Source: Stigmatella aurantiaca
Lineage (GTDB): Bacteria > Myxococcota > Myxococcia > Myxococcales > Myxococcaceae
Assembly: GCF_900109545.1 (NCBI RefSeq)
Contig: NZ_FOAP01000020.1
Location: 62,001-126,000, forward strand
DNA length: 64,000 bases
Direction: 5' to 3'
The first letter of the stretch is position 1. Every line of letters begins with the position of its first letter. The notes below the pieces were generated by a model. The model was given only the letters and a program-made list of their open reading frames with translations, was not told the DNA's origin and made no database searches. A program made the position numbers and the translations under genes. Shown piece by piece: positions 23,056 to 31,393 of the stretch.

Positions 23056-23074
23056 GCCCCTACAAGGGGCACGC

Positions 23075-23195
23075 CCTTGGGTGCCCACGCCGGGCACGCA
23101 AGAGGGAAGCCGGTGGAAGGCCGGCGCGGTCCCGCCACTGTGAGTGGGCAGCCGAGCCCATGAGCCAGGAGACCTGCCCAGGGGTCCGGGCGCCC
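23075..23195 (+). ncRNA. cobalamin (B12) riboswitch aptamer
   Basis: The leader carries the conserved core GGGAA...GGTG...CCGG then GCGGTCCCGCCACTGTGA, and the B12-box-like GCCAGGAGACCTGCC at 23164-23178. These are the hallmarks of AdoCbl/cobalamin aptamers. It lies directly upstream of a BtuB-like receptor gene, the classical arrangement in which ligand binding shuts off uptake genes. Confidence 0.9.
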
Positions 23196-23250: not shown

Positions 23251-25224
23251 ATGGCGTGGCCCGCGCGCGCTGGGCTGGCAGTGTGCCTGGCGCTCAGCAT
23301 GAGCAGTTCCGTGAAGGCCCAGGAGACCGCCGCCCCGGCCGGTCCCGAGGTGCCCGTCTTCTCCGTGCCCGCCGTGGAGGTCCACGCGGCCCCCGTGTCC
23401 GAGCCTCCCGAGTCGGCGGCCCAGCGGGACCCCAGCGGCGCGCTCACCGTCATTGAGACGGCGGACTTTGGCGGGGCGGCCCGCGACGCCGCCGAGGTGC
23501 TCGCCACGGCCCCGGGCGTGGCGGTGCAGGACAACGGCGGCTACGGCCAGAGCAAGAGCCTGGTGGTGCGCGGTGCCGCGGCCAACGGGACGCTCGTGCT
23601 GCTGGATGGCATTCCCCTGAACGGCGCGGGCGGCATCGCGGACCTGTCGCGCGTGCCGCTGGCGCTGGTGGAGCGCTTCGAGGTGCTGCGCGGGGGCGCG
23701 GGCGCCCGCTACGGCTCGGGCGGACTCGGGGGCGTGGTGAACGTCGTCACGCGGCGGCCTGGCCACGAAGTGCAGGTGGCGGGGGAGGCCAGCTATGGAA
23801 GCTGGGACACCGTGCGCGGGTGGGGGATGGTCTCGGGGCCGGTGGGGGAGGGCGAGGCGTTGCTGCTGCTCCATGGGGGACGCTCCACGGGGAACTTCCG
23901 CTTCCTCTTCGATGCGAGCCCCGCGCTGCCGGGAGATCCGCTCGTCGAGCGGCGCCGCGCGAACAACGACGCGCGGGGGGCCGGCGGGCTGCTCCGGCTG
24001 AGGCACGGGCTGGGCGAGACGCTGGAGCTGGATGCGCTGCTGGAGCTGTCCACCGATGACCGGGGGCTGGCGGGCACCGCGCAGAACCCATTGCCGGACG
24101 CGAGGCAGGAGGCCGGGCGGGTGGCGGCCAGCGTGCGGCTGTCGGGCGAGTCCAGCGGAGTGCAGGGCTCGGCGCGGGCGTGGTTCCGAGGGGACCGCAT
24201 CGGGCTGTCCAGCGGACCCCTGGTCACGCAGGGCCACCAGGTGCAGCGCGTGGGCGGCGTGGAGGCGGAGGCGCGCACGCAGCTGGGTGAGCGGCACGGC
24301 GTCTCGGCGGTGGTGACGGTGTCCACCGAGGACGTCACCGGAGCGGAAGGCGCCCCCGGAGAGGATTCCCGGCCGGGCTGGTGGCGGGCCAGCGCCATGC
24401 TGATGGACGAGGTGAGCCTGGCAGGAGAGCTCCTGCGCCTCATTCCCTCGGTGCGGGTGGAGCGCGCGGGGCCGTATACGCTGCTGTCTCCGAAGGTGGG
24501 CGCCACGGTGAAGCTGCCGGAGGGCTTCGCGCTGCGGGCCAACGTGGGGCAGGCCCACCGCGCGCCCTCCTTCCAGGAGCTCTACGTGCGCCAGGGGTTG
24601 CTGTTGCCCAATCCCTCGCTGAAGCCCGAGCGGGTGCTCTACACGGACGCGGCGGTGGTGCACCGCACGGAGCATTCGCTGGCCTCGGTGGGCGGCTTCT
24701 ACAGCCTCTACGAGAACCTCATCGCCTACGAGCTCTATCCCCCCTTCGCCGCCAAGCCGTACAACTTCGCCTCGGCGCGCGCGGTGGGCCTGGAGGCCGA
24801 GGGGGAGTGGCGCCCCTTCCCCTGGCTGGCCGGGGCGTTCAGCTACACCCTGCTCGTGTCGCGCAACCTCCGGGATGATCCGCGGTACTACCTCAAGGAA
24901 CTGCCCTACCGGCCCCGCCACAAGCTGAGCGCCCGCGCCTCGGGCGGCCCCCGCTGGCTCACCGGCCGCGTGGAGGTGGCCACGCAGGCCGCGCAGTTCG
25001 TCAACCGCACGGAGGAAGCGGTGCTGCCCGGACGGACCTTCCTCCACGCGGGCCTCTCCAGCACCTTTGGCCGGACGCCCGAGCTGACCGTGTCGCTGGA
25101 ACTCAAGAACCTCCTCGACGCCCAGGCCGAGGATCTCGACGGTTACCCCCTGCCCGGAAGGGCCGCCTACGTGACGGTGGCGGCCTCGTTCGGCGGCTCC
25201 TCGAAAAGGACCCAGACCCCATGA
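23251..25224 (+). CDS. btuB: TonB-dependent vitamin B12 receptor, BtuB-like
   Basis: The 657-residue outer-membrane protein has a signal peptide (about 1-23), a TonB-box-like segment (about 40-50), a plug (about 70-170 with APGVAVQDNGGYGQSKSLVVRG and VEVLRGGAGARYGSGGLGGVVNVVT) and a beta-barrel, with the NVGQAHRAPSFQELY box of the BtuB/FepA group. The leader carries a cobalamin riboswitch, strongly supporting B12 as substrate. The last strand is followed by a short hydrophilic tail, GGSSKRTQTP, instead of ending in Phe, and the stop overlaps the next gene by four bases. Confidence 0.88.
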   Translation: MAWPARAGLAVCLALSMSSSVKAQETAAPAGPEVPVFSVPAVEVHAAPVSEPPESAAQRDPSGALTVIETADFGGAARDAAEVLATAPGVAVQDNGGYGQSKSLVVRGAAANGTLVLLDGIPLNGAGGIADLSRVPLALVERFEVLRGGAGARYGSGGLGGVVNVVTRRPGHEVQVAGEASYGSWDTVRGWGMVSGPVGEGEALLLLHGGRSTGNFRFLFDASPALPGDPLVERRRANNDARGAGGLLRLRHGLGETLELDALLELSTDDRGLAGTAQNPLPDARQEAGRVAASVRLSGESSGVQGSARAWFRGDRIGLSSGPLVTQGHQVQRVGGVEAEARTQLGERHGVSAVVTVSTEDVTGAEGAPGEDSRPGWWRASAMLMDEVSLAGELLRLIPSVRVERAGPYTLLSPKVGATVKLPEGFALRANVGQAHRAPSFQELYVRQGLLLPNPSLKPERVLYTDAAVVHRTEHSLASVGGFYSLYENLIAYELYPPFAAKPYNFASARAVGLEAEGEWRPFPWLAGAFSYTLLVSRNLRDDPRYYLKELPYRPRHKLSARASGGPRWLTGRVEVATQAAQFVNRTEEAVLPGRTFLHAGLSSTFGRTPELTVSLELKNLLDAQAEDLDGYPLPGRAAYVTVAASFGGSSKRTQTP

Positions 25225-26816
25225 ATGGCCACGAAGCGATGGAGCGGAGGCAGCCCCGGCCGTGGGCCTTGGTTGCGGTGCTGGCGGGGGTGCTGGCGGG
25301 CTGCCCGGACCAGGGGGCGGAGTGCGGCGAGGGCCTCTCGCTGTGTGGCTCGGAGTGCGTGGACCTCACCAGCGAGCCCAACCACTGCGGCGCCTGTGGC
25401 GTCACGTGTGGCCGGGCGGGCGTGTGCGCGGCATCGGCCTGCGAGTGCGGACCCGGGGCCACGCGGTGCGGCGGGCAGTGCGTCCTCACCGCTTCGGATG
25501 TGGCCCACTGTGGCGGCTGCGGGGGGGCCTGTGCCCCGGGCCAGGTCTGTGAAGCGGGCCAGTGCCAGGCGGCCTGCACCGGCGCCTCCACCACGCGCTG
25601 CGGGGATGGGTGCGTGGACCTCCAGGCGGATCCTTATTACTGCGGCACCTGTGACACCTCCTGTGGGGGCGTGAAGAGCTGCCGCACGGGCGTGTGTACC
25701 TATGACGTCGTCGCCGCCTGCTTCAACACGGGGCAGGTGGTGGGCCTCCAGGCGGGAACGGACCTGAAGGGGCCCAACGTGGCGGTGGGAGAGCGGCCTC
25801 AGAGCGTGACGCGGATGCAGGACGTGCTGCTGGTACTCGACGCGGCGAAGCGGCTGCGCGAGGCCCGGCTGTCGGACTACGGCCCCCTGGCCGAGGCCCC
25901 CGAGACGGGCAATGCCCCCAACCAGGTGCTCGTGGACGAGCCCTTCGTCTACGTCATCAACTCCACGAGCAACACGCTGCTGGTGCTGCGGCGCCGGGCC
26001 GAACCCCTGGCCCAGCCCGAGGGCGGAACGCGCTTCCCCAACGGCCTGGGGCTGGCGCCGGTGGCCAGCGTGGACTTCGGGGCCAACACGAACCCCTATG
26101 CGATGGCGAAGCTCGGCACGGACCTCTGGGTGACGCTGTACGGCAACCTGGGCGGGGATGTCTCAGCGGGGGGGCGGCTGGCGCGGGTGAACGTGGAGAA
26201 TCCGCTGGCCCCCGTGCTGGAGCCCAACCCCCTCGTGCTTCCCGCCGAAGCCTTCCCCGGCGGCTCCGCCGAGTCCACGCCCACGGGCATCGCCGTCCAC
26301 CAGGGCAGCCTCTACATCGCCCTCAACAACCTGGATCCGGCGACGTACCGCCCCGGAGGGCCCGGCAGTCTGGCGAAGGTGAACCCCCGGACGCGCCAGG
26401 TGTCCCCGGTGCCGCTGGGGGACGGGTGCCTGAACGCGGGATGGGTGGCCTCCCTGGGCGATCGGCTGCTGGTGAGCTGTGGAGGCCATGCCGTCTACGA
26501 CAACGACTTCACCCTCACGGCGGTGGAGAAGACGGGGCTGGTGCTGCTCGATGCCCAGGACGCGGTGGTGTCAACGTACACGCTCGCGTGCCCGCCGGGC
26601 GCCACGGACTGCCCGCTGTCCTCCGCGGGGCGCTTCGCCGTGGTGGGCTCCCGCGCCTACGTGGGGGACAACAACGCGGGCCGCGTCTTCGTCATCGAGG
26701 CCGTGGGCCACCAGCTCATCGAGCGGCGGGGCCCCGGTCCCGGCGCCCAACCCCCCATTCTGGCCTGTCCGAGCAATGGCTTCTCCCTGGTAGGAGATGT
26801 CGTCGCCCTGCCGTAG
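25221..26816 (+). CDS. Cys-rich beta-propeller lipoprotein coupled to btuB
   Basis: The 531-residue protein has a lipobox (LAGVLAGC), three Cys-rich repeats of about 38 residues (about 35-160, each with C-G-x-x-C and a closing V-C), and then a propeller-like region (about 170-530) with blade strands such as FVYVINSTSNTLLVLRR and RAYVGDNNAGRVFVIE. Bacteroides BtuG is a surface propeller lipoprotein that caps BtuB and grips B12; here a propeller lipoprotein is translationally coupled to btuB (ATGA overlap) under the same riboswitch. A BtuG-like role is therefore proposed. The Cys repeats are not part of BtuG. Confidence 0.7.
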   Translation: MNGHEAMERRQPRPWALVAVLAGVLAGCPDQGAECGEGLSLCGSECVDLTSEPNHCGACGVTCGRAGVCAASACECGPGATRCGGQCVLTASDVAHCGGCGGACAPGQVCEAGQCQAACTGASTTRCGDGCVDLQADPYYCGTCDTSCGGVKSCRTGVCTYDVVAACFNTGQVVGLQAGTDLKGPNVAVGERPQSVTRMQDVLLVLDAAKRLREARLSDYGPLAEAPETGNAPNQVLVDEPFVYVINSTSNTLLVLRRRAEPLAQPEGGTRFPNGLGLAPVASVDFGANTNPYAMAKLGTDLWVTLYGNLGGDVSAGGRLARVNVENPLAPVLEPNPLVLPAEAFPGGSAESTPTGIAVHQGSLYIALNNLDPATYRPGGPGSLAKVNPRTRQVSPVPLGDGCLNAGWVASLGDRLLVSCGGHAVYDNDFTLTAVEKTGLVLLDAQDAVVSTYTLACPPGATDCPLSSAGRFAVVGSRAYVGDNNAGRVFVIEAVGHQLIERRGPGPGAQPPILACPSNGFSLVGDVVALP

Positions 26817-26826
26817 GAGCTTCTCC

Positions 26827-27690
26827 ATGAGGACACCCTTCATCTCGCTGTGGTTGCTCGCCGTGCTGAGCCTCTCCGGGCCGGTGGAGGCCGCCGCGCC
26901 GGCCCCGGCGCCCCGCTTCCTGGGCCCGAAGCGCGAGGGCAAGGCGCGGCGCGTGGTGACGCTCGCCCCCTCGCTGACGGAGATGGTGCTGGCCATGGGG
27001 GCGGGAAGCACGCTCGTGGGCGTCTCCCGCTTCGACGAGGACAAGGCCGTGGCGGCGCTGCCCCGCGTGGGGGGCTTCGTGGATCCGTCCGTGGAGGCCG
27101 TCGTGGCGCTCAAGCCGGACCTCATCCTGGTGCAGCCCGGGCCGGGCAACCAGCGGCCCGTGGAGCGCATGGCGGAGCTGGGCGTGCCCGTGCTCCTCTT
27201 GCCCCTGCACTCCGTGGGGGACACGCTCGCCGCGTTGCGCGCGGTGGGCCAGGCGCTGGGCCAGACGAAGGAGGCCGAGGCGCTCATCGCCCGCTTCGAG
27301 GCCACGCGGGCCCGCATCCGCGAGGCGGCGAAGGCGCTGCCCCCGCGCCGGGTGCTGCTCGTCTATGGCTTCGAGCCGCTCGTCGTCGCGGGCCCCGGCT
27401 CCTTCGCGCACGAGTTGCTGGGGGATGTGGGAGCCGTCAACGTCGCGGCGGACGCGGGCTCCGCCTACCCGGTGTACTCCATGGAGCGCGTGGTGCGGGC
27501 CCGGCCCGAGGTGGTGGTGGACGCGGCCCACGTGGACGTGGGCAAGGACAAGCTCCAGGCGCTGCCGGGGCTGGCCTCGGCGCGCTGGGTGGAGATGCCT
27601 TCGTTGGCGCTCCTACAACCGGGGCCCTCGCTGGGCAAAGGGTTGGAGGAGCTGTTCGGTCTGGTGCATCCCGGGGCTGCCGCACGCTGA
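26827..27690 (+). CDS. btuF: periplasmic B12-binding protein BtuF
   Basis: The 287-residue protein has a signal peptide (about 1-22) and a BtuF/cluster A-III fold: RRVVTLAPSLTEMVLAMGAG, VGVSRFDEDKAVAALPRVGGFVDPSVEAVVALKPDLI, and a C-terminal lobe (LPPRRVLLVYGF...PGSFAHELLGDVGAVNV). These proteins deliver cobalamin, or related chelates, to a BtuC-type permease. ATG 26827 has TAGGAG before it. It follows the lipoprotein gene by ten bases. Confidence 0.85.
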   Translation: MRTPFISLWLLAVLSLSGPVEAAAPAPAPRFLGPKREGKARRVVTLAPSLTEMVLAMGAGSTLVGVSRFDEDKAVAALPRVGGFVDPSVEAVVALKPDLILVQPGPGNQRPVERMAELGVPVLLLPLHSVGDTLAALRAVGQALGQTKEAEALIARFEATRARIREAAKALPPRRVLLVYGFEPLVVAGPGSFAHELLGDVGAVNVAADAGSAYPVYSMERVVRARPEVVVDAAHVDVGKDKLQALPGLASARWVEMPSLALLQPGPSLGKGLEELFGLVHPGAAAR

Positions 27691-27758: not shown

Positions 27759-28016
27759 ATGGACCGTCGTTCCGCGTCGCTCCTTCTCCTGGCGGGTCTC
27801 GCCGCCGGGGCCCTGTCGGCCTTCCTGTTGCCCCAGGCCGCCCAGGCGCAGGCGCCGTTCCTCGAAGCGGTGGAGTACGAGTCCCTCAAGCGCGAGGGAC
27901 CCGAGGAGGATCTCGCCCAGCTGCGCAGGCTGGGGGCCGAGGGGTGGAAGGTGGCGGCCACCGTGGAGGTGGACGGCACCACCAAGCGCTACGTGCTGAT
28001 GCGCACGCGGAGGTGA
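27759..28016 (+). CDS. small exported protein, DUF4177-like
   Basis: The 85-residue protein has an N-terminal signal (about 1-30, AQAQA) and a domain with YESL...LRRLGAEGWKVAATV...KRYVLMR, resembling DUF4177 proteins (gly-Trp-Lys/Glu and a closing beta-strand). Function unknown. It lies between btuF and btuC, one base ahead of btuC, so it is in the B12 operon. Confidence 0.6.
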   Translation: MDRRSASLLLLAGLAAGALSAFLLPQAAQAQAPFLEAVEYESLKREGPEEDLAQLRRLGAEGWKVAATVEVDGTTKRYVLMRTRR

Positions 28017-28017
28017 T

Positions 28018-29076
28018 GTGAGCGCCGGGGCCCCAAGGCTGCGGGCCTCCCGCGTGCTGGGGCTGTGCGCCGCGTTCCTGGGGCTGACGCTGGCCGCGTT
28101 CGCCCTGGCCGTGCGCTTTGGCGAGCAGCCCATCTCCCTGGCCGCGGCCCTCGGGGACGCGGAGTCCTCGGACGCGGTCATCTTCTGGTCGCTGCGCCTG
28201 CCCCGGGCGCTGCTGGGCGTCATCGTGGGGGCGGGACTCGCCGCATCCGGGGCCACGCTCCAGGGGCTGTTGCGCAACCCGCTCGCGGATCCGTTCGTGC
28301 TCGGCGTGTCAGGTGGGGCGGCCCTGGGGGCGACGCTGGCGCTCGCGCTGGGCCTGGCCACGGTGGGGCAGGTGGCGCCGGGCCTGGCCGGAGGGCTGGA
28401 GCGGCTCTCCGGGCCCGCGCTGCTCGCCTTCCTTGGGGCCGGGGGCTCGGTCCTCTTCGTGCTCGCCGCCAGCCGGGGCCACGCCGCGCGGGCGCCCTAC
28501 GCGGCCCTGCTCACGGGGGTGGTCTTCAACGCGTTCGCCTCCGCCGCCATCACGCTCGTCAAGACGCTGTCGGCGCCGGACCGGCTGGGGGAAATCCTCT
28601 ACTGGCTCGCCGGGGCTCTGGGCTACGAGCGGGGGGCCACGCTCGGGCTCGCCGCGCTGCTGCAAGGGGGCGCCCTCGCGGTGATGCTGGCGCTCTCGGG
28701 GCAGCTCAACCTGATGACGCTGGGGGACGAGGACGCCCAGACGCTCGGGGTGCCTGTGGTGCGCACGCGCCGGCTGCTCCTGCTGGCCACGAGCGCCAGC
28801 GTGGCGGGGGCGGTGGCCCTGACGGGGCTCATCGGCTTCGTGGGGCTCATCGTCCCGCACCTGCTGCGGCTGGCCTTCGGACCGGACCAGCGCCTGCTGA
28901 TTCCCCTGTCGGCCCTGGGCGGGGCGGCGTTCCTGGTGCTGGCGGACCTGCTGGCGCGGCTCTCCTTCGCCCTCTTCGGGGCCGAGCCGCCCGTGGGCGT
29001 CATCACCGCGCTGCTCGGGGGCCCGCTCTTCATCGCCCTGCTGTCCCGGCGCGGGAGGGGCGGCGCTCCCGTCTAA
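28018..29076 (+). CDS. btuC: B12 ABC transporter permease BtuC
   Basis: The 352-residue protein is a FecCD/BtuC permease with about ten helices and the motifs LRLPRALLGVIVGAGLAASGATLQGLLRNPLADPFVLGVSGGA and GFVGLIVPHLLR. It starts at GTG one base after the preceding stop. The ATPase (BtuD) and other B12 genes are not downstream; the next gene is a VIT/vWA protein, so an unlinked or shared ATPase must serve it. Confidence 0.9.
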   Translation: MSAGAPRLRASRVLGLCAAFLGLTLAAFALAVRFGEQPISLAAALGDAESSDAVIFWSLRLPRALLGVIVGAGLAASGATLQGLLRNPLADPFVLGVSGGAALGATLALALGLATVGQVAPGLAGGLERLSGPALLAFLGAGGSVLFVLAASRGHAARAPYAALLTGVVFNAFASAAITLVKTLSAPDRLGEILYWLAGALGYERGATLGLAALLQGGALAVMLALSGQLNLMTLGDEDAQTLGVPVVRTRRLLLLATSASVAGAVALTGLIGFVGLIVPHLLRLAFGPDQRLLIPLSALGGAAFLVLADLLARLSFALFGAEPPVGVITALLGGPLFIALLSRRGRGGAPV

Positions 29077-29143: not shown

Positions 29144-31393
29144 GTGTACGCCCCCCTCCGAATGCTGCTGCTGAGCACCCTGCTGATGCCGGTCCTGGCC
29201 TCGGCGCAGGGCATGTTGCTGCCCACCACGCCAAGTGCCCGGCCCCTGGCCATCAAGAGCCAGCGGGTGACGGTGGCCATCCAGGACGGCACGGCCGTCA
29301 CCCGGGTGGAGCAGACGTTCCAGAACGACGGCCCCTCGCAGCTCGAGGCCCACTACATCTTCCCGCTGCCCCGGGGCGCCGCGCTCTCGGAGTTCTACCT
29401 GTGGGTCAACGGGAAGAAGACGAAGGGCGAGCTGCTCGAACGGGACAAGGCCACGAACATCTACGAGGGCATCGTCCGGCGCCTGGCGGACCCCGGGCTG
29501 CTGGAGTACGTGGACTCGGATGTGTTCCGGGTCCGGGTCTTCCCGGTCCCCGCGCGGGGCGAGCAGAAGGTGGAGCTGGCCTTCAGCCAGGTGCTGAACT
29601 TCTCCGCGGGCCTGTACCACTACCACTACCCGCTCGGGGCAACGGCCCAGCAGGGGCAGCCCGCAGACTGGCGGCAGGTGGGGGGCACGGCGAAGAACGA
29701 CTTCACCTTCAGCGCGAAGGTGTCCTCGAAGGTGCCGCTCAAGAGCATCTACTCCCCCACGCACCCGATGGACGTGTCCCGCCGTGGCGAGACGGAGGCG
29801 GTGGTGGGGCTGGAGCAGGTGAACGGCGCGGACCTCTCCAAGGACGTGGACCTCTACTTCTCGGTCTCGGACAAGGCGGTGGGGCTGTCGCTGCTCACCT
29901 ATAAGGAGGCGGCCGAGCCCGGCTACTTCGTCGCGCTCATCGCCCCGAAGACGGAGGTGAGCCCCAGCGAGGTGGCCGCCAAGCGCGTCACCTTCGTCAT
30001 CGACACCTCGGGCTCGATGCAGGGCAGCCGGATGCAAATTGCCAAGGACGCCCTGAAGTATTGCGTCACCCGCCTCAACCCGAAGGACACCTTCAACGTG
30101 GTGCGGTTCTCCACGGACGTGGAGGCGCTCTTCCCCGCGCTGAAGGCCGCGAACCCCGAGAACGTCCAGAAGGCGGTCTCCTTCGTGGAGGGGCTGGAGG
30201 CCATGGGGGGCACGGCCATCGACGAGGCCCTGGTGCGAGGCCTCCAGGACAATGACGGCACGTCTCCCTCGCCCCACCTGCTCCTGTTCATCACGGATGG
30301 CCAGCCCACCATCGGCGAGACGGACGAGGGCGCCATCGCCCAGCACGCCAAGGCAGGGCGCAAGGCGAAGACGCGCCTGTTCACCTTCGGCGTGGGGGAA
30401 GACCTCAACGCGCGCTTGCTGGACCGGCTCGCCGATGATGGCGCGGGGAGCTCGGACTTCGTCCGGGACGGCAAGGAGTTCGAGACGAAGATCTCCAGCT
30501 TCTACGACAAGGTGAGCCACCCGGTGCTGTCGGACCTGGCGCTGGACCTGTCCTCCATCGACGCGTACGACCTCTACCCCCGCAAGCTGCCGGACCTCTT
30601 CAAGGGAACGCAGCTCGTGGTGATGGGCCGCTACCGGAAGTCCGGAGACGCGAAGGCGGTGCTCACGGGCTACGTGAACGGCGAGAAGCGGACCTTCGAG
30701 TACGGCACCACCGCGCCCAAGGAGGCCACGCGGGACGGCTTCATTCCCCGGCTGTGGGCCATCCGCAAGGTGGGCTTCCTGCTGGAAGAGATTCGCCTGC
30801 GCGGCGAGCGCCCCGAGCTGCGCGACGAGGTGATTGCGCTCGCCAAGAAGTTCGGAATCGTCACGCCTTACACCAGCTACCTGGTGGTGGAGGACACGCC
30901 GCTGGTGGCCACGCCGTCACCCGTCATGCGCCCCGAGCCCATGAGCGAGGAATCCGCCTCCGGCGCTGACTTCGCGCCGCCGCCGCCCAGGGGAGGACGC
31001 GGGGCCCCGGCGCCCGCGCTCGCCGCGCCCGCCGAATCGCTCGCGAGGGCGGACGGAACGGGCAGTGTGGCCGTCTCCCGCGAGATGAAGAAGATGAAGG
31101 AGGAGGAGCGAGGCCCCTCGGCGAGCGAGCCGGTGCGGGTGGCCGCGGGCAAAACCTTCCTCTACCGGGACGGAAGCTGGATCGACTCCGAGGCGCTCGC
31201 CAATCCAGGCAAGCAGCTCCAGGTCAAATTCCTCTCGAAGGGCTACTTCGCGTTGCTCCAGGCCCGTCCTGACCTGAAGGCCGCGTTCGCCCTGGGAGAC
31301 CGGGTGGTGGTGGGGGTTGCGCCGGGCAAGAGCCTGCGCGTGGGACCGGAGGGAGAAGAAGACGAGGGCAAGGTCCGCGCCTTCCTCAAGTAG
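29144..31393 (+). CDS. VIT/vWA domain protein, secreted
   Basis: The 749-residue protein has a signal peptide (about 1-24), a VIT domain (about 30-160, VEQTFQNDGPSQLEAHYIFPLPRGAALSEFYL) and a vWA domain (about 275-460) with the MIDAS DTSGSMQ (Asp287) and Thr/Asp residues later. The last part is Pro/Ala-rich and then beta-rich. Such inter-alpha-trypsin-inhibitor-like proteins bind metal-dependent ligands. The GTG at 29144 has AGAGGAGA nine bases upstream and is preferred to ATG 29162. Confidence 0.85.
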   Translation: MYAPLRMLLLSTLLMPVLASAQGMLLPTTPSARPLAIKSQRVTVAIQDGTAVTRVEQTFQNDGPSQLEAHYIFPLPRGAALSEFYLWVNGKKTKGELLERDKATNIYEGIVRRLADPGLLEYVDSDVFRVRVFPVPARGEQKVELAFSQVLNFSAGLYHYHYPLGATAQQGQPADWRQVGGTAKNDFTFSAKVSSKVPLKSIYSPTHPMDVSRRGETEAVVGLEQVNGADLSKDVDLYFSVSDKAVGLSLLTYKEAAEPGYFVALIAPKTEVSPSEVAAKRVTFVIDTSGSMQGSRMQIAKDALKYCVTRLNPKDTFNVVRFSTDVEALFPALKAANPENVQKAVSFVEGLEAMGGTAIDEALVRGLQDNDGTSPSPHLLLFITDGQPTIGETDEGAIAQHAKAGRKAKTRLFTFGVGEDLNARLLDRLADDGAGSSDFVRDGKEFETKISSFYDKVSHPVLSDLALDLSSIDAYDLYPRKLPDLFKGTQLVVMGRYRKSGDAKAVLTGYVNGEKRTFEYGTTAPKEATRDGFIPRLWAIRKVGFLLEEIRLRGERPELRDEVIALAKKFGIVTPYTSYLVVEDTPLVATPSPVMRPEPMSEESASGADFAPPPPRGGRGAPAPALAAPAESLARADGTGSVAVSREMKKMKEEERGPSASEPVRVAAGKTFLYRDGSWIDSEALANPGKQLQVKFLSKGYFALLQARPDLKAAFALGDRVVVGVAPGKSLRVGPEGEEDEGKVRAFLK

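Follow-up and report, generated by a model that had tools for sequence, protein, structure and literature searches.

A β-propeller lipoprotein is encoded together with the receptor gene btuB throughout Myxococcota, and this coupling is phylum-wide and near-obligate. We consider it likely that the lipoprotein, although from outside Bacteroidota, is a partner of BtuB that captures B12 as BtuG does, acting as a lid or as a handover protein; it probably sits on BtuB and hands it B12. Our analysis started from a 64-kb stretch of DNA (the window), whose host genome is 9.37 Mb in size and has Hyalangium and Archangium as the nearest named relatives found. The locus in the window comprises:

23062-23195, + strand: cobalamin riboswitch (RF00174; 64 bits against a gathering threshold of 31.5, E 1.7e-13), 55 nt 5′ of the btuB start codon
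23251-25224, + strand: btuB-like gene for a TonB-dependent receptor of 657 aa (Plug and TonB_dep_Rec domains; best NCBIfam model TIGR01779; best PDB match E. coli BtuB)
25221-26816, + strand: gene for the propeller lipoprotein of 531 aa, the putative BtuB partner (from its signal, Pfam and NCBIfam matches, AlphaFold2 model, neighbourhood and co-divergence)
25221-25304, + strand: signal peptide and lipobox, with Cys28 predicted to be lipidated (read from the sequence; relatives have the same layout)
25305-25700, + strand: three Stig1-type Cys repeats, a possible stalk (Pfam and NCBIfam; folded confidently in the AlphaFold2 model)
25701-26813, + strand: predicted seven-bladed β-propeller (DSSP of the model, blade assignment and fold matches), with blade 1 completed by the final strand (residues 524-529)
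26827-27690, + strand: btuF-like gene for a periplasmic B12-binding protein (Peripla_BP_2, E 1.3e-30; best NCBIfam model NF002894, BtuF)
27759-28016, + strand: small ORF of 85 aa with a signal-like N-terminus in the btuF/btuC gap (from the ORF list), with no Pfam match at E 1 and no NCBIfam match at E 0.01
28018-29076, + strand: btuC-like permease gene (FecCD, E 1.2e-76; best NCBIfam matches are BtuC models)

The riboswitch is the sole Rfam match within the window. The btuB-like and lipoprotein ORFs share four bases (ATGA), so that the arrangement described in the original prediction, a propeller lipoprotein overlapping btuB by four bases with a cobalamin riboswitch ahead, is seen in the DNA. 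The lipoprotein could also start at the in-frame ATG at 25239, which is where the alignments of the close relatives L036 and L037 begin. Therefore, the overlap hinges on the choice of start, but the adjacency does not. Against TIGR01779 the receptor scores 134 bits (E 4.7e-39), far below the cut-off of 599.7 bits, and ‘BtuB’ is thus a best-match name backed by the riboswitch and the btuF and btuC neighbours. E. coli BtuB entries take all the top places in its PDB search (E 3.3e-28 to 6.7e-28), and the next receptor is PirA (2.2e-15). Directly 3′ of btuC there is no btuD; the next gene on the + strand (29144-31393) resembles a VIT/VWA-domain protein by eye.

The lipobox of the window protein reads L-A-G-C28. 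A simple rule detected a lipoprotein signal in 117 of 133 relatives; of the other 16, most have one that is recognisable by eye or had their start misplaced by the script. Stig1 (PF04885) matches the lipoprotein in three stretches (E 1.1e-11), and NF041328 (‘MXAN_6577-like cysteine-rich protein’) matches residues 17-160 with 147.6 bits against a cut-off of 100, which bears out the three N-terminal Cys-rich repeats that had been predicted. The NF041328 model covers the Cys repeats only and leaves the propeller outside it; over residues of about 161-531, no Pfam or NCBIfam family exceeds its cut-off. DUF4465, found in B12-binding lipoproteins of the BtuJ type, was rejected as the B12 binder: PF14717 is not among the Pfam matches of the window protein and was found in none of 39 relatives’ genomes.

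The AlphaFold2 model of the window protein (65 sequences) has a pLDDT of 93.1 and a pTM of 0.90 and contains seven blades, and its best matches among solved structures are propellers, in agreement with the fold originally predicted. The assignment of seven four-stranded blades is our own, from DSSP, and for blades 2 and 4 we positioned the D strands manually. The top PDB match of the model in Foldseek is BtuG2 with cyanocobalamin (8ptf, E 6.9e-11). Several more BtuG entries are among the first 50 matches, and the E-values of BtuG, AztD and BamB lie within about one order of magnitude. In VIA-align, the best match is 1L0Q (Z 34.9, rmsd 1.8, 280 residues aligned); 1L0Q and 6-phosphogluconolactonases rank above BtuG2 (8bai; Z 29.9, rmsd 2.6, 291 residues aligned), and 3DSM and other BtuG chains match across the whole propeller. 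A single-sequence phmmer search of the PDB with the window protein gave no match, and propellers were reached by profiles only. The profile A4, built from 51 propellers, matches 1L0Q at E 5.3e-10 and BtuG chains at E 2.6e-5 and 1.9e-4. The BtuG chains occupy ranks 6, 7 and 10 of 21 in this search, with 1L0Q and NHL proteins scoring higher, and just 2 of the 51 members touch PF16819 (DUF5074; best E 0.013); specific homology to BtuG is thus not established. The fold is common to BtuG, yet not to BtuG alone, because AztD, BamB and 1L0Q match comparably or better. Taken from the profiles and the predicted model, these comparisons place the protein among YVTN/YncE/lactonase-type propellers, with BtuG apparently close but not closest.

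In the predicted model, the conserved loop residues are located on one propeller face only. The 56 most conserved positions (top 15%) include 21 loop residues, every one of which belongs to a B-C or D-A loop and none to an A-B or C-D loop, and the mean conservation of the B-C/D-A loops is 0.44 versus 0.366 (permutation p 0.002), with the counts resting on hand-set blade limits. In BtuG2, the corrinoid is located in the central cavity facing BtuB (PMC10404256).

Single-sequence searches recovered the lipoprotein from 94 of the 96 family genomes and from 108 of the 145 order genomes, and a profile search (E 1e-6; including some weaker matches taken at score alone) found the propeller in 157 of 195 genomes of the phylum. 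Plasmid records gave no match to the lipoprotein. A subset of the order-level matches was fetched as 96 loci, and 95 of these have a BtuB match upstream on the same strand, the exception being L104. The further 20 loci from the phylum profile all have a BtuB match, which in L137 is just a fragment at the contig start. Searches from the BtuB side gave at least 150 matches (E up to 1e-45) across the 195 Myxococcota genomes, with a match in 147 genomes. Among the 150 BtuB matches listed, the propeller gene follows in 148 (135 with a propeller match in place by coordinates, 10 in fetched DNA and 3 divergent), and the other two end at the contig edge (L165 and L168). The divergent propellers L154, L155 and L158 were matched with filters off (E 3.4e-16, 1.3e-24 and 4.9e-28). 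On the propeller side, 146 entries remain after dropping four second-fragment entries: 135 with a listed BtuB, eight with a BtuB match in the locus (G047, G115, G132, G146, G147, G152, G153 and the partial G164), two at contig ends and one without BtuB. This last one (L104:5077-6822) is a second propeller copy in G043, directly 5′ of btuC and with no BtuB within about 5 kb; second copies also occur paired with BtuB.

The original interpretation is upheld in part, namely in the propeller fold, the lipoprotein signal, this strict pairing with BtuB, the cobalamin control and the co-divergence of the two proteins. The pairing had been regarded as a myxobacterial trait. The trait is present there but is wider, extending through the searched Myxococcota genomes with a BtuB match, and the Cys repeats are not general, being absent in circularly permuted forms. 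We ran cmscan for RF00174 on 63 of the 116 flanked loci (L036-L151), 62 of them with BtuB. The riboswitch is upstream of btuB on the same strand in 49 of these 62; six have less than 450 nt of contig upstream, and in seven (L044, L050, L056, L059, L066, L110 and L143) RF00174 was not found. These seven operons, together with the propeller in L104 that lacks a BtuB, weaken the case for a BtuG-like partner.

Of the 96 loci, 33 have the propeller, BtuB, BtuF and BtuC genes all intact, and the co-divergence was analysed in these. With BtuF and BtuC regressed out, propeller and BtuB distances have a partial correlation of 0.854 (Mantel-type p 0.0005), which is 0.848 with cubic terms and 0.946 in the 28 loci of the family. 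The partial correlations over the 33 loci are 0.15 for propeller and BtuF, -0.18 for propeller and BtuC, and 0.68 for BtuF and BtuC. This split distinguishes an outer module (BtuB and the propeller) from an inner one (BtuF and BtuC). The co-divergence of the propeller and BtuB can partly reflect the adjacency of the two genes and the faster evolution of both.

These values bear on the main alternative, in which the propeller lipoprotein faces the periplasm and either takes B12 from the inside of BtuB to BtuF or helps to fold or stabilise BtuB. The lipoprotein gene is located between btuB and btuF, and two of the close structural matches, BamB and YncE, work in the periplasm. In E. coli, the gene of the periplasmic YncE adjoins the TonB-dependent receptor gene yncD/pqqU. 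However, the divergence of the propeller tracks BtuB and not BtuF, for which the partial correlation within the family is -0.22, a pattern not expected of a shuttle from BtuB to BtuF. The disulphide-rich repeats and the BtuG precedent weakly favour the outer face. On balance, we regard a periplasmic role as unlikely. The protein could also be a lactonase- or gluconolactonase-type propeller enzyme that modifies cobamides or their carrier at the cell surface, as 6-phosphogluconolactonases and a lactonizing enzyme account for several of the best VIA-align matches. This is very improbable: the window protein has no match above cut-off to a curated enzyme family, A4 has only six invariant columns (four Cys, one Pro and one Gly), and so close an association with a transporter fits binding better. 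An operon passenger that merely accompanies btuB and does something unrelated at the surface would fit the Stig1/NF041328 repeats, which need not concern B12 because they are a domain with its own family, but the pairing in 148 of the 150 matches listed, the co-divergence and the BtuB-paired second copies make it hardly credible.

The propeller is circularly permuted in 22 loci, in three ways according to the order of the profile coordinates. In type 1 (16 loci), profile positions 165-174 to 334-367 are followed by 2-3 to 128-162; in type 2 (five loci, L132-L136), about 42-65 to 366 are followed by 2-5 to 39; and in type 3 (L137), 230-362 are followed by 4-228. When each of the 15 type-1 proteins of A5 was doubled, one collinear match crossed the junction and beat either half in all 15. 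Direct reading of L124 indicates that the C-terminal strand which closes the standard form continues there directly into the N-terminal strand of that form. Where aligned, the four invariant Cys are kept, and C105, C124, C211 and C237 of L124 are equivalent to C403, C420, C516 and C167 of the standard form. The predicted model of L124 (pLDDT 82.3, pTM 0.86) is, by our own blade reading, a seven-bladed ring closed by the N-terminal outer strand. YncE leads its structural matches (VIA-align Z 34.8), and BtuG is not among the first 50. No Cys repeat was counted in any permuted form listed; the repeats therefore seem to have been added to the propeller core and, judging from the sequences, are dispensable. 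The permutants may provide a rare natural test of the hinge of a TonB-receptor lid, in which the tether shifts while the ring and the partner stay.

The likeness of the Myxococcota protein to BtuG (BtuG1-3 of Bacteroides thetaiotaomicron) is that of a seven-bladed propeller lipoprotein beside btuB in a cobalamin-riboswitch locus (PMC6143338, PMC10404256). BtuG2 and BtuB2 of B. thetaiotaomicron form a lid-type complex (PMC10404256). In contrast to BtuG, the myxococcotal protein is known here from its sequence and predicted fold, is about 8-13% identical to BtuG in alignments, and adds the N-terminal Stig1-type Cys repeats and the circularly permuted members. XusB on XusA in Bacteroides is also a seven-bladed propeller lipoprotein that serves as the lid of a TonB-dependent receptor, but it differs in having a ferric siderophore as its ligand and in belonging to the DUF4374 family and to Bacteroidota (PMC13142918). 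Its entry 9hqe is among the first 50 Foldseek matches of the window model. The YncE/YVTN surface-layer propellers (1L0Q, 3VGZ) are the best profile and VIA-align matches; they are, however, not lipoproteins tied to BtuB. The original study, which used BlastP, reported BtuG from Bacteroidetes exclusively, and the authors asked why only Bacteroidetes had added such a component (PMC6143338). We found no description of a Myxococcota BtuB-propeller pair in the open-access literature searched, and the available part of a further report does not place BtuG in Myxococcota (PMC13398666). If the lipoprotein is indeed a BtuG-like partner, lid-assisted B12 uptake is not solely a gut adaptation and has a near-obligate counterpart throughout Myxococcota. 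We tentatively suggest, as a possibility somewhat short of even, that the Myxococcota B12 lid evolved in parallel to BtuG from the YVTN/YncE pool, as a closed ring whose ends and tether were moved at least three times by permutation while the BtuB partnership was kept.

In the proposed partnership with BtuB at the cell surface, low cobalamin would switch on btuB and the lipoprotein gene together via the riboswitch. The N-terminal lipid would anchor the lipoprotein in the outer membrane, the Cys repeats may form a stiff stalk, and the conserved face of the propeller would bind the corrinoid and dock on BtuB. BtuB would import the ligand, and BtuF and BtuC would then carry B12 on. The surface location, the binding of B12, the physical complex with BtuB, the lid motion and the role of the stalk are all features that we infer.

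Some loci have additional features. In L104:5077-6822 and L107:6048-7853, an Asp/Ala/Gly-rich low-complexity insert is present inside a propeller blade. The btuB-propeller pairs of L044, L056 and L143, in which no riboswitch was detected, are in genomes with another such pair. An additional cobalamin riboswitch is located 3′ of the propeller gene, ahead of another unit, in L047, L059, L070, L076, L083 and L087, and L087 contains three cobalamin riboswitches in 13 kb. In L043, L047 and L058, the locus is followed downstream by clusters of tRNA genes that share the strand of the operon.
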